The position numbers and the translations under genes are program-made. Of a stretch of 64,000 bases of DNA, positions 45,585 through 60,260 are shown in pieces. Location of the stretch: NCBI GenBank assembly GCA_944324305.1, contig CALUVV010000004.1, forward strand, positions 1-64,000, read 5' to 3'. A model generated the notes under the pieces. The model ran no database searches, had not been told where the DNA came from, and saw nothing but the letters and a program-made list of their open reading frames with translations. Each line of letters begins with the position of its first letter. Position 1 is the first letter of the stretch. Source of the DNA: Candidatus Gastranaerophilales bacterium (GTDB lineage: Bacteria; Cyanobacteriota; Vampirovibrionia; Gastranaerophilales; Gastranaerophilaceae).

Positions 45585-46348
45585 ATGAATATTTTATTAA
45601 AATTTAGAATTCGGGGGGGGGGCAGCTAGAAGCTCCTACTGACAAGTCTAATGGTAAGTACAAGACTTTTTTCATTACCCGTCAAAAAAACTTTGCTTTC
45701 ACACTGGCTGAAGTTTTAATTACTTTAGGGATTATAGGAATTGCTGCTGCACTTACAATGCCGTCAATGATTAGTAATTACAAAGAAAAAGAGACGATTG
45801 TTAAGTTAAAAAAGACTTATTCTGTATTATCACAAGCATATATTACTGCTTTTAACAAATACGGTTCACCTGACGAATGGACATGGAGCCCGCAGGAGTA
45901 TCCTGTCCCGCAAACTCTGGCCGGATATTTGAGAGAAAATTTAAAAGTTATTAAAGTGTGTGATGATGGCTCCTGTTTTCCTGATGTAATGTACAAACGG
46001 TTAAATGGTACAAATCATGCAAATTACAGTAAAGAAGGTTCAAATTTTGCTTCATTTGTTTTGAATGACGGAACTTTATTTTTGTTTTGGAGCAATGGCA
46101 GTTGTCTGGCATCACATAAAACTTGCGGCTTTATATATACGGATATAAACGGTAAATATCCTCCAAATCAATGGGGCAGGGATATGTTCGGTTTTATACT
46201 TACACCATCTAACATTATTCCGTTTGGCATTGAAGGTTATGAATATCCCTTTTCAACGTCATGCAACAAAAACCGTGATTCTTATTTAAACGGTATTGGC
46301 TGTACGGCTTGGGTTATACAGAATGAAAATATGGATTATCTGCACTGA
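45585..46348 (+). CDS. Pseudopilin 1, out of frame through a 10-G tract (phase-variable?)
   Basis: With 10 G (45613-45622) translation from ATG 45585 stops at TAG after 14 residues. With 11 or 8 G the same start continues in frame through LEAPTDKSNGKYK to the prepilin motif KNFAFTLAEVLITLGIIG and onward, giving 254 residues with 11 G. The mature part starts at Phe after an Ala-Phe cleavage site (Gly is more usual) and has a hydrophobic helix, then a globular domain ending GIGCTAWVIQNENMDYLH, the pattern of type II secretion or pilus-like proteins in Gastranaerophilales. Coordinates span the start codon to the pilin stop; an internal start at 45758 would lack the export signal. Confidence 0.7.
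45613..45622 (+). repeat. Poly-G tract in the pilin 1 leader
   Basis: Ten consecutive G in a strongly AT-rich region, ten codons after the start. Slipped-strand changes here would switch the pilin in or out of frame. Confidence 0.9.
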
Positions 46349-56793: not shown

Positions 56794-57557
56794 TTAATTT
56801 TCAAGCATAATTTGTCCCCATGGATAATCGTCTTTAATTTCCCAGCCGTCCATTTGAATAAGTCTTGCGCAATAATGCCGTCTCCCTTTTGAACTTATAT
56901 TAGGGTCATCGGTATTACCGTATTTACATGCCTTCAAAACCTCTTCTCTGTCGTTATTTCCCATGCCGTACGGACCGAATTCTCCGTTCGTTAACTGAAA
57001 TACAAAAGTTCGTTTCCCGTCAAATGATTCCGGAGCACAATATTTATATTCTGTGCAGTAGAAAAAGTAAATGGTGTTTGACGATGCAATGTAAGCATTA
57101 AATCCTGACCCGTCGTTAAAAGCAACATCCAGGTAACTGCCGTCCTGTTCTTTTTTTACGGCTTGAATATATTTTCCTATTGAAGTATTATACCAGTTTG
57201 TCAGAGCGGCTCCGCTTTTATCACTGAATTTATAGTCGCCTGCTATCAACCCTTCATCTTCCTGCCATCTCATAACTGCCTGATTCATAACGGAATAAAA
57301 TTTTGATAACTTTACTCCGACTTGTTTTTTCTGATGGTTTGCAACCAATGCAGGCATTGTCATAGACGCAACCACGCCTATAATACCTAAAGTTACCAAA
57401 ACCTCAGCTAGTGTAAAAGCCTTTAAACAGCGCTTAAAATAAAACCGGTTAAAATTTTTAGAAAAATTGTAAAAGCGCCCCTTAAACAGTCTATCCGGTG
57501 TATCTACGCACGTAGTGTAGGGGGGGGGGCAATTCTAAGATCTTTAATATCAACCAT
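56794..57557 (-). CDS. Pseudopilin 2, out of frame through a 10-C tract (phase-variable?)
   Basis: Translation from ATG 57557, preceded by AGGAGGTAAGA, reads 17 residues and stops at TAG because the tract has 10 C (coding strand). With 11 or 8 C it continues through DTPDRLFKGRFYNFSKNF to the prepilin motif KAFTLAEVLVTLGIIGVVA, giving 254 residues with 11 C. The mature part begins after an Ala-Phe cleavage site, has one hydrophobic helix and a globular domain with YFFYCTEYKYC, and ends near YCARLIQMDGWEIKDDYPW. Same design and offset as pilin 1. An internal ATG at 57399 would lack the prepilin motif. Confidence 0.7.
57520..57529 (-). repeat. Poly-C tract (coding strand) in the pilin 2 leader
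   Basis: Ten G on the plus strand, ten C on the coding strand, ten codons after the start, in an AT-rich area. Change by one base would switch the pilin frame. Confidence 0.9.
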
Positions 57558-57578
57558 TCTTACCTCCTGTTTTTTTAT

Positions 57579-57607
57579 ATTATTCAGCATGAGTTCTATT
57601 TTGTCAA
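57579..57607 (-). promoter_or_regulatory. Promoter of pseudopilin gene 2
   Basis: TTGACA (57607 to 57602), exactly 17 bases, AATAAT (57584 to 57579) on the minus strand. The perfect -35 box and the strong ribosome binding site mark ATG 57557 as the true start. Confidence 0.75.
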
Positions 57608-57776: not shown

Positions 57777-60260
57777 ATGAAAGACGCATATTTTCCGCAG
57801 GAAATAGAGAAAAAATGGCAGAAAATCTGGGAAGAAAAAGGTACGTTTAAAACCCCCGACACAAGCGATAAACCTAAATATTACGCTTTATCAATGTTCC
57901 CGTATCCATCAGGTAAACTTCATATGGGACATGTCAGAAATTATACGATTACCGATGTAATTGCACGCTTTAAAAAGATGAACGGCTTTAATGTTCTTCA
58001 CCCTATGGGCTGGGACAGCTTCGGGCTTCCTGCCGAAAATGCTGCAATGAAACACGGTGCAAACCCTGAAAACTGGACTGATGAAAATATTGCATATATG
58101 ACTAAACAGCTAAAAATGCTGGGGCTTTCTTACGACTGGGACAGAGAAGTTACAACCTGCAAACCCGATTATTATAAATGGACGCAGTGGCTTTTTCTTC
58201 AGCTTTATAAAAAAGGTCTTGCATATAAAAAAGAAGCAGCGGTTAACTGGTGTGAAGAATGCGGAACCGTTCTTGCAAATGAACAGGTTATCGACGGCAA
58301 ATGCTGGAGATGCGACCATGTTGTAGAGAAAAAATATTTATCTCAATGGTTTTTAAAAATTACTGATTATGCGGAAGTTCTCCTTGAGGATTTGGATAAA
58401 TTACCGGGCTGGGGAGATAACGTTAAAACAATGCAGGCTAACTGGATCGGAAAATCTCAAGGTGCAATTTTAAAATTCAAAGTTGTTGAAAAAGATATGG
58501 AAGTTCCTGTTTATACAACACGTCCCGATACGGTGCACGGTATAACATACCTTGTAGTAGCTCCGGAATACAAAGATATTGAAGAATTAACAACTCCCGA
58601 AAATAAAGAAGCCGTTGAAGCATACAGAGCAAATGCGCGTAAAATGACGGAAATTGAAAGATTATCGACAGACAGGGTTAAAACAGGCGTTCCGCTCGGT
58701 ACTCATTGTATTAATCCGTTTACGGGCGAAAAATTCCCGCTCTGGACCGCAGATTATGCCCTTGTAGAATACGGAACGGGTGCTGTCATGGCTGTTCCCG
58801 CTCATGATACACGCGACTTTGATTTTGCTAAGAAATACAATCTTCCGATGAAAGTAGTAATTCAAAATCCTGAAAATCCTTCGGATTGCAAAGATGAAGC
58901 CTACACCGAACCGGGTGTTCTGGTAAATTCAAACGAATTTGACGGGATGGGCAATGAAGAAGCCAAAAAAGCAATTACACAAAAAGCGGTTGACGGCGGC
59001 TTCGGCGAATTTAAAACTCAATACAGGCTTCGTGACTGGCTTGTGTCAAGACAGAGATACTGGGGTGCTCCAATCCCTGTTGTTTATTGTGAAAAATGCG
59101 GTATTCAGCCCGTTCCTGAAGATCAGCTTCCGGTATTGCTTCCGAAAGATGTTGATTTCAGTGTTGTCGGCAAATCTCCGATTACAACGTCAAAAACGTT
59201 TGTTAATACAACCTGTCCTTGCTGCGGCGGCCCTGCTAAACGCGAAACCGATACGATGGACACATTTGTTTGCTCAAGCTGGTATTACCTGCGTTATTCA
59301 GACGCAAAAAATGATAAAATGCCGTTTGCAAAAGACAAAGTTAATAAATGGCTGCCCGTTGACCAGTATGTAGGCGGTATTGAGCACGCTATTTTACACC
59401 TGTTATATTCAAGATTTTTCACAAAAGCCTTAAGAGATATGGGGCTTCTTGATTTTGATGAACCGTTTAAAAACCTGTTAACTCAAGGTATGGTCTTGAA
59501 AGACGGCTCCAAGATGTCAAAATCCAAAGGAAACACCGTAGACCCTGACGAAATATTTGAAAATTACGGGGCAGATACCGCAAGATTATTTATTTTATCA
59601 GATTCACCGCCGGCTCGTGATTTTGACTGGTCAGACGCAGGTGTGGAAGGATGCTATAAATTCCTTAACAGAGTATGGAGATTAATTTCTTCCAACGCTG
59701 ATAATATCTCGTTGAATTATCCCGAACTTAAAGCAGGCGCTTTAAAGAAAAAAGAAAATGATGACCTGCTTCGTGTAATTCATATGGCAATTAAAGGAAT
59801 AACGAATGACATATCCAATGACTTCCAGTTCAACACCGTAATTTCAAAATACAGAGAACTTGTTAATGCAATTTATGATTGGAGAGGCAAGAAATCTGAA
59901 CTTGATGAGGAAGATAAAAACGTTTTAAGTTTTGCAATTGTTTCATTAATAAAATTAATGTCACCGGTTGCTGTTCACCTGACGGAAGAAGCCTGGAATG
60001 ATTTAGGTGCGGAAGGTTCCGTTCACGATGTTGAATGGCCGAAGTGGGACGAAAATCTTGCAAAAGCAAGTTCAATTACGCTTGTTGTTCAGATTAACGG
60101 TAAAGTTAAAGATAAAATCGAGGCTGATGAAGCATTGTCAGAAGACGAACTTAAAGCGTTGGCTTTGAACAGCGAAAAAGTAAAAGAACTTACCGAAGGC
60201 AAGACAATTGTAAAAACTATTGTTGTTCCGAAAAAACTTGTAAATATAGTTGTTAAATAA
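57777..60260 (+). CDS. leuS: Leucyl-tRNA synthetase
   Basis: Charges tRNA-Leu with leucine. The 827 residues have the HIGH-type motif PYPSGKLHMGHVRNYTI, an editing domain with TTRPDT, a zinc-type Cys cluster (CEECG and CWRCD), and the catalytic KMSKS near residue 578 (DGSKMSKSKGNTVDP). Normal length for the bacterial form. GGAGAG precedes the start. No T-box leader is evident. The 219 bases upstream, shared with pilin 2, hold its promoter. Confidence 0.95.
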   Translation: MKDAYFPQEIEKKWQKIWEEKGTFKTPDTSDKPKYYALSMFPYPSGKLHMGHVRNYTITDVIARFKKMNGFNVLHPMGWDSFGLPAENAAMKHGANPENWTDENIAYMTKQLKMLGLSYDWDREVTTCKPDYYKWTQWLFLQLYKKGLAYKKEAAVNWCEECGTVLANEQVIDGKCWRCDHVVEKKYLSQWFLKITDYAEVLLEDLDKLPGWGDNVKTMQANWIGKSQGAILKFKVVEKDMEVPVYTTRPDTVHGITYLVVAPEYKDIEELTTPENKEAVEAYRANARKMTEIERLSTDRVKTGVPLGTHCINPFTGEKFPLWTADYALVEYGTGAVMAVPAHDTRDFDFAKKYNLPMKVVIQNPENPSDCKDEAYTEPGVLVNSNEFDGMGNEEAKKAITQKAVDGGFGEFKTQYRLRDWLVSRQRYWGAPIPVVYCEKCGIQPVPEDQLPVLLPKDVDFSVVGKSPITTSKTFVNTTCPCCGGPAKRETDTMDTFVCSSWYYLRYSDAKNDKMPFAKDKVNKWLPVDQYVGGIEHAILHLLYSRFFTKALRDMGLLDFDEPFKNLLTQGMVLKDGSKMSKSKGNTVDPDEIFENYGADTARLFILSDSPPARDFDWSDAGVEGCYKFLNRVWRLISSNADNISLNYPELKAGALKKKENDDLLRVIHMAIKGITNDISNDFQFNTVISKYRELVNAIYDWRGKKSELDEEDKNVLSFAIVSLIKLMSPVAVHLTEEAWNDLGAEGSVHDVEWPKWDENLAKASSITLVVQINGKVKDKIEADEALSEDELKALALNSEKVKELTEGKTIVKTIVVPKKLVNIVVK

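Follow-up and report, generated by a model that had tools for sequence, protein, structure and literature searches.

Ten-base C/G tracts in prepilin gene leaders as a probable phase variation element in Candidatus Gastranaerophilales

In a Candidatus Gastranaerophilales genome, most of the sampled genes for type IV prepilins carry a run of ten C or G (C10) between the start codon and the signal motif, which leaves the reading frame one base short. Our comparisons of sequence suggest that C10 is probably a genus-wide element of phase variation at the DNA level, OFF by default, dependent on orientation and homeostatic in length. A DNA-level switch is favored because the tracts have a polarity that follows the replication strand, because their flanks are fixed to the DNA strand, and because in-frame C11 and C8 alleles exist. 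The DNA analyzed was a stretch of 64 kb (the window) from a genome of 2.2 Mb (G000), of which 815 kb, or 37%, were sampled base by base, and 33 genomes of the same genus were compared.

Results

The pilin locus in the window lies on the minus strand beside leuS (57777 to 60260, plus strand), a divergent neighbor that served as the anchor in the search for the locus in other species. Direct reading confirmed the promoter proposed in the first-pass annotation, a consensus match consisting of a -35 box TTGACA (57602 to 57607) and a -10 box AATAAT (57579 to 57584) with a spacer of 17 bp, as well as the ATG at 57557, which is preceded by a Shine-Dalgarno sequence AGGAGG (57563 to 57568). From the ATG, a start-side leader of 28 nt (57530 to 57557) that ends in the shared flank CTTAGAATTG runs up to the ten C (57529 to 57520), and 4 nt past the tract is the palindrome CTACGTGCGTAG (57504 to 57515). 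Comparison with other pilin loci and with a congener, G004, delimits a signal-side leader cassette beginning YTTCVDTPDRLFKGRFYN (57419 to 57519), and the prepilin body extends from around KAFTLAEVLVTLGIIG as far as the stop at 56794 (56794 to 57418). Translation bore out the earlier claims of a TAG after 17 codons at ten C and of a continuous frame at 11 or 8 C, which yield 254 and 253 aa, respectively, and the earlier count of about 35 residues from the tract to KAFTLAEVLVTLGIIG was correct; at C9 or C12, a stop is reached after about 21 to 22 aa. The locus thus has a G/C run of at least nine inside a reading frame, as contingency loci do, and one-unit changes toggle between the full-length and the truncated reading on translation.

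In profile searches, the product scored above the cut-off for PF07963 (22.4 bits against 21.2) and for TIGR02532, and a low-confidence structure prediction (pLDDT of 54) placed a long helix at residues 37 to 88, starting from the signal motif. By these sequence features, the gene is a type IV prepilin or pseudopilin; one prepilin peptidase is encoded in the genome. A sister prepilin gene in the window (45585 to 46348, plus strand, with the end coordinate derived from its 254-aa reading) has G10 in the sense strand at 45613 to 45622 and is closed at ten and open for 254 aa at eleven. This second tract of the window, with the same one-base offset as that at 57529 to 57520, is probably the one that the first-pass annotation had assigned to pilin 1.

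The offset recurs throughout the 815 kb. A tract separates the start from the signal motif in 81 of 109 prepilin genes, and exactly one base is lacking for an open frame in 75 of the 76 C10 leaders, while four of five C11 leaders and the single C8 leader are in frame. The frame downstream spans at least 150 aa in 79 of the 81 tract-bearing pilins. Another 27 of the 109 genes have plain, open, short leaders (e.g., MKKA-FTLAEVL), and in one (L180:10465) the G-run, TCGTGGGAGGGGC, has decayed and is interrupted but in frame, so that, judging by its sequence, this gene is apparently locked ON. Insertion of a mobile element in random frame was ruled out for the pilins by the single phase seen in 75 of 76.

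The length distribution is equally sharp. The whole genome holds 169 C/G runs of ten, 6 of eleven and none of nine, i.e., 169 of the 175 tracts of 9 to 11 are of length ten. Within the 815 kb, C/G runs fall off normally up to six and are absent at seven and nine, after which there are 91 C10, 6 C11 and 1 C8; a third-order Markov model predicts 0.18 runs of ten where 91 were observed. Runs of A/T decay smoothly through ten, which, together with the occurrence of C8, C11 and C13, rules out a homopolymer cap as an artifactual cause. Sixteen tracts in the 815 kb lie outside the pilins, in genes for a family 2 glycosyltransferase, a GlgA-like glycosyltransferase, an AAA ATPase, a matrixin-like peptidase and others, and a coding feature specific to pilins was thereby ruled out. 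These non-pilin C10 tracts are mostly in frame at ten (about ten genes). Since C10 is kept both in out-of-frame pilins and in in-frame non-pilins, the length of the tract is determined by a factor outside the frame of the individual gene. In the family 2 glycosyltransferase gene (L041:6066-6075, SRYMPGGGQ), the GGG codons form a pure G10 that is in frame and kept in G004, and going by this reading, the gene is possibly phase-variable with ON as the default. The tract motif matched nothing in viral contigs, and a housekeeping role of the KOPS or Chi kind is unlikely given copy numbers of 0 to 169 within one genus.

The strand that carries the tract is uniform within each contig, with one change on contig C3 in the sampled sequence of G000 (98 tracts). 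In G036 (43 tracts), the sign changes a single time on each of two contigs, and tract polarity behaves alike in G007 and G037. Regardless of gene direction, it is in every case the strand with positive GC skew that bears the G-run, and in the pilin genes of the 815 kb the sense strand has G in 63 and C in 19. From the GC skew, we infer that this is the leading strand and the template for lagging-strand synthesis. A G-rich repeat in Escherichia coli mutated at a 5- to 174-fold higher rate with the G on the lagging-strand template (PMC10530614). The flanks have a direction too: an asymmetric YG-C10-GA, with a weaker GGAGCTTARA upstream, is fixed by the DNA strand, both in unrelated genes and in pilins of either orientation. 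The palindrome family of CTACGTGCGTAG occurs in the 815 kb almost only 4 to 6 nt downstream of C10, again in both gene orientations. In programmed recoding, the slippery sequence keeps a fixed orientation to the coding strand, whereas the flank here tracks the DNA strand.

C10 dominates in most of the 33 congeners, with few C9 and C11, and tracts are nearly absent from the other families of the order. The named matches had C10 in nine of nine cases, with C8 to C13 permitted. In most genomes looked at, the number of tracts tracks that of pilins, with at least 146 pilins and 169 tracts in G000, 144 and 126 in G004, 44 and 42 in G010, and 16 and 0 in G013. The exception is G002, which has 103 prepilins and only 12 C10 and 15 C11 tracts and may rely on a different switch or keep many of its genes in a locked state. 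G013, with its 16 prepilins and no C10 tract, is a natural contrast to the tract-rich genomes where a dedicated enzyme is concerned. G004 is deposited as "Fusobacterium sp. CAG:439" (FR900419 to FR900479; L185, L187, L189, L190 and L192), a misnomer, as it belongs to the same genus as G000; other relatives are Candidatus Gastranaerophilales MAGs. Many draft contigs of the relatives terminate in or next to a C tract (e.g., G010:C1:6-18, G002:C50:6-18 and G004:C51:8-19), as if the tract, by being a repeat or a mixture of lengths, had broken the assembly.

At the leuS-anchored locus, exactly C10 is present in G000, G004, G039, G003 and G001, and in G007 the tract is absent and the leader is open. 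The five C10 versions give 15 to 18 aa at ten and 231 to 420 aa at eleven and are open at eight. Orthologous loci of G000 and G004 mostly have C10 in both genomes despite flank divergence of 10 to 15%; where the lengths differ (G000/G004), they do so as C8/C10 in a pair that is 99% identical, as C11/C10 in two pairs, and as C10/C9 and C10/C11, and the C8 and the C11 of the two C11/C10 pairs are the in-frame alleles. The first-pass annotation had taken the tract for a designed switch and had proposed comparison with related genomes as a test, in which uniform lengths would speak against a switch. That comparison came close to uniformity, with C10 in five of five tract-bearing species at the window locus, although lengths differ between relatives at some other loci. 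The notion of a switch is partly supported: it gains from the one-base rule in 75 of 76 leaders and from the in-frame C8 and C11 orthologues, but the nearly uniform lengths count against it, and the tracts also occur in non-pilin genes.

Leader sequences are exchanged around the tract. The signal-side cassette of the window locus is 93 to 94% identical to those of three other pilin loci and 87% identical to that of one more, and between G000 and G004 this locus has its start-side leader in common while the sequence past the tract is unrelated. Flank types are reassorted across C10, the right type R1 occurring with the left types L0, L1, L3, L6 and L8 and the left type L0 with the right types R0, R1, R3 and R4. 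In many orthologous pairs, the 25 to 75 bp beside the tract have been replaced and the tract is intact. A separate observation concerns L045:13187 and its counterpart in G004 (L199), where G004 has a tandem duplication of the tract together with about 35 bp, the second copy being C8. No Y1 transposase was found in G000, and a link to REP sequences and their Y1 transposases was thereby ruled out.

Between G000 and G004, dN/dS was 0.125 for the 20 pilin pairs with C10 and out of frame in both genomes, 0.130 for tract-free pairs (n = 5) and 0.14 for the window pilin. As the value of 0.125 is like that of the tract-free pairs, the C10 pilins are not decaying. Such a value fits frequent switching or an RNA-level decoding of C10 DNA, and it is surprising if the genes are silent most of the time.

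Discussion

Under DNA-level phase variation, a C10 placed between the start codon and the prepilin signal would keep the frame OFF at ten and turn it ON at eleven or eight. The G-run would lie on the template of the lagging strand, the place where misalignment of G-rich repeats is most frequent, and slippage by a single base during replication would generate C11 (ON) cells out of a C10 (OFF) majority. Ten would be a steady-state length, set by the G flanks together with the replication machinery and not by the frame of the gene concerned. There are well over a hundred pilins of this kind, of which few would be displayed per cell at once, and the tract with its flanks could also act as a junction for leader exchange between pilin loci, which would spread the tract. 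Passive slippage, however, would be expected to leave C9 and C10 in about equal numbers among OFF alleles, and 0 C9 against 169 C10 were found. Because this near-absence of C9 and the equal dN/dS are unlike passive slippage with mostly silent genes, either a length-keeping mechanism or recoding at the RNA level is needed, and to the slippage reading a putative length-keeping mechanism must be added. MutS1 is present in the genome, which counts against the preferred reading; loss of mismatch repair through an absent MutS was ruled out for the same reason. We tentatively suggest, as a conceivable though doubtful elaboration based on sequence comparison, that a dedicated replication-coupled mechanism might hold about 170 C10 tracts at ten and toggle them singly to eleven, a genome-wide two-state digital switch, in place of random slippage, that would leave each cell with few displayed pilins of its own and double as a point of leader exchange.

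With a near-invariant length and an equal dN/dS, RNA-level recoding stays a serious rival, although we regard it as unlikely. The C10 or G10 would then be a programmed slippery site at which, in a fraction of events, RNA polymerase inserts an extra nucleotide or the ribosome shifts by -1, every cell would make some full-length pilin, and the C11 and C8 alleles would be constitutive. Such recoding would account for the near-constant length, for the need for +1 in 75 of 76 leaders and, at the leuS-anchored locus, in five species, and for purifying selection that is as strong on the C10 pilins as on those with no tract. Bacteria are known to show transcriptional slippage, chiefly at A/T runs (PMC1088944 and PMC5009743). 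Replichore polarity and flanks bound to the DNA strand in both gene orientations nevertheless do not fit a mechanism that acts on RNA, runs of C and runs of G in sense would need an identical direction of slip, and in the approximately ten non-pilin genes that are in frame at C10, slippage would merely cost product. If true, this rival would mean recoding at an unprecedented scale within one genome.

It is quite improbable that the tract serves chiefly for recombination, as a short polar junction in the DNA at which leader and start cassettes are swapped and which affects the frame only secondarily. The reassortment of left and right cassettes around C10, the orthologues that keep the tract with 25 to 75 bp beside it swapped, and the different leaders of G000 and G004 at the window locus all speak for it, and the polarity could reflect fork-coupled exchange. 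But a junction leaves the one-base offset in 75 of 76 leaders and the in-frame frames at other lengths unexplained, the leaders are little constrained and may simply evolve fast, and Y1 transposase, to which the search for recombinases was confined, is absent from G000. That a small selfish insertion inactivated many pilins, which are now decaying, was already disfavored and is very hard to credit, since the majority of copies are indeed out of frame but 79 of 81 downstream frames reach at least 150 aa, dN/dS is 0.125, the offset is uniform and in-frame C11 and C8 alleles exist. An assembly or sequencing artifact by which a true 11 is misread as 10 is just as implausible, because the lengths are uniform but the same assemblies also contain C8, C9, C11 and C13, A/T runs are smooth through ten, independent assemblies agree (C10 in nine of nine with C8 to C13 allowed) and C10 tracts outside the pilins have an open frame at ten.

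If phase variation at the DNA level is true, the phase-variable repertoire of an uncultured and common gut lineage would be among the largest known and would consist almost entirely of pilins, and the lineage would lend itself naturally to testing how the direction of replication governs homopolymer mutation. Annotation pipelines will call the C10 genes broken or misplace their start codons, and hence the family is now invisible; searches of open papers gave no earlier description of C10 pilin tracts in this lineage.

Among known strand-polar motifs of the chromosome, KOPS and Chi are G-rich and lie on the leading strand. The C10 tracts are likewise G-rich and strand polar but vary from 0 to 169 copies among congeners and are concentrated in pilin leaders. 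In the antigenic variation of gonococcal pilE, a G-run that forms a G-quadruplex lies beside the pilin gene, its orientation matters and pilin segments recombine. In contrast to pilE, each tract here is inside the leader of a separate prepilin gene, and an arrangement of silent copies and an expression site was not found. Shufflon-type systems reassort cassettes at a repeated site with a dedicated recombinase linked to it, and the reassorted flanks around C10 may or may not come from a mechanism of this kind. Programmed transcriptional slippage, as in IS elements and Citrobacter tssM, likewise uses a fixed homopolymer between two frames (PMC1088944 and PMC4256274), but its known sites are mostly A/T and gene oriented, whereas the sense C or G is here set by the replication strand.

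In the poly-G/C tracts of Neisseria pilC1 and pilC2, as here, a G/C run lies in the frame of a type IV pilus gene and one-base changes do the switching. The pilC tracts range from G9 to G20 (PMC5953494). There, two genes are concerned and lengths vary widely, whereas here there are about 80 genes in the sampled third of the genome and almost all lengths are ten; neither replichore polarity nor a shared asymmetric flank was found reported for pilC in the literature searched. The contingency loci of Campylobacter and Helicobacter, which with those of Neisseria make up phasomes, similarly comprise many G/C tracts of at least nine in surface genes, glycosyltransferases included, that switch by frame. 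Ordinary contingency tracts come in many lengths and those described here in nearly one, so that the broad spread across loci that is usual for such systems, without strictly defining them, is lacking (0 C9, 169 C10 and 6 C11). Compared with the phasomes, the tracts of this lineage are further set apart by strict strand polarity, by the approximately 80% that belong to one protein family and by the presence of MutS1.
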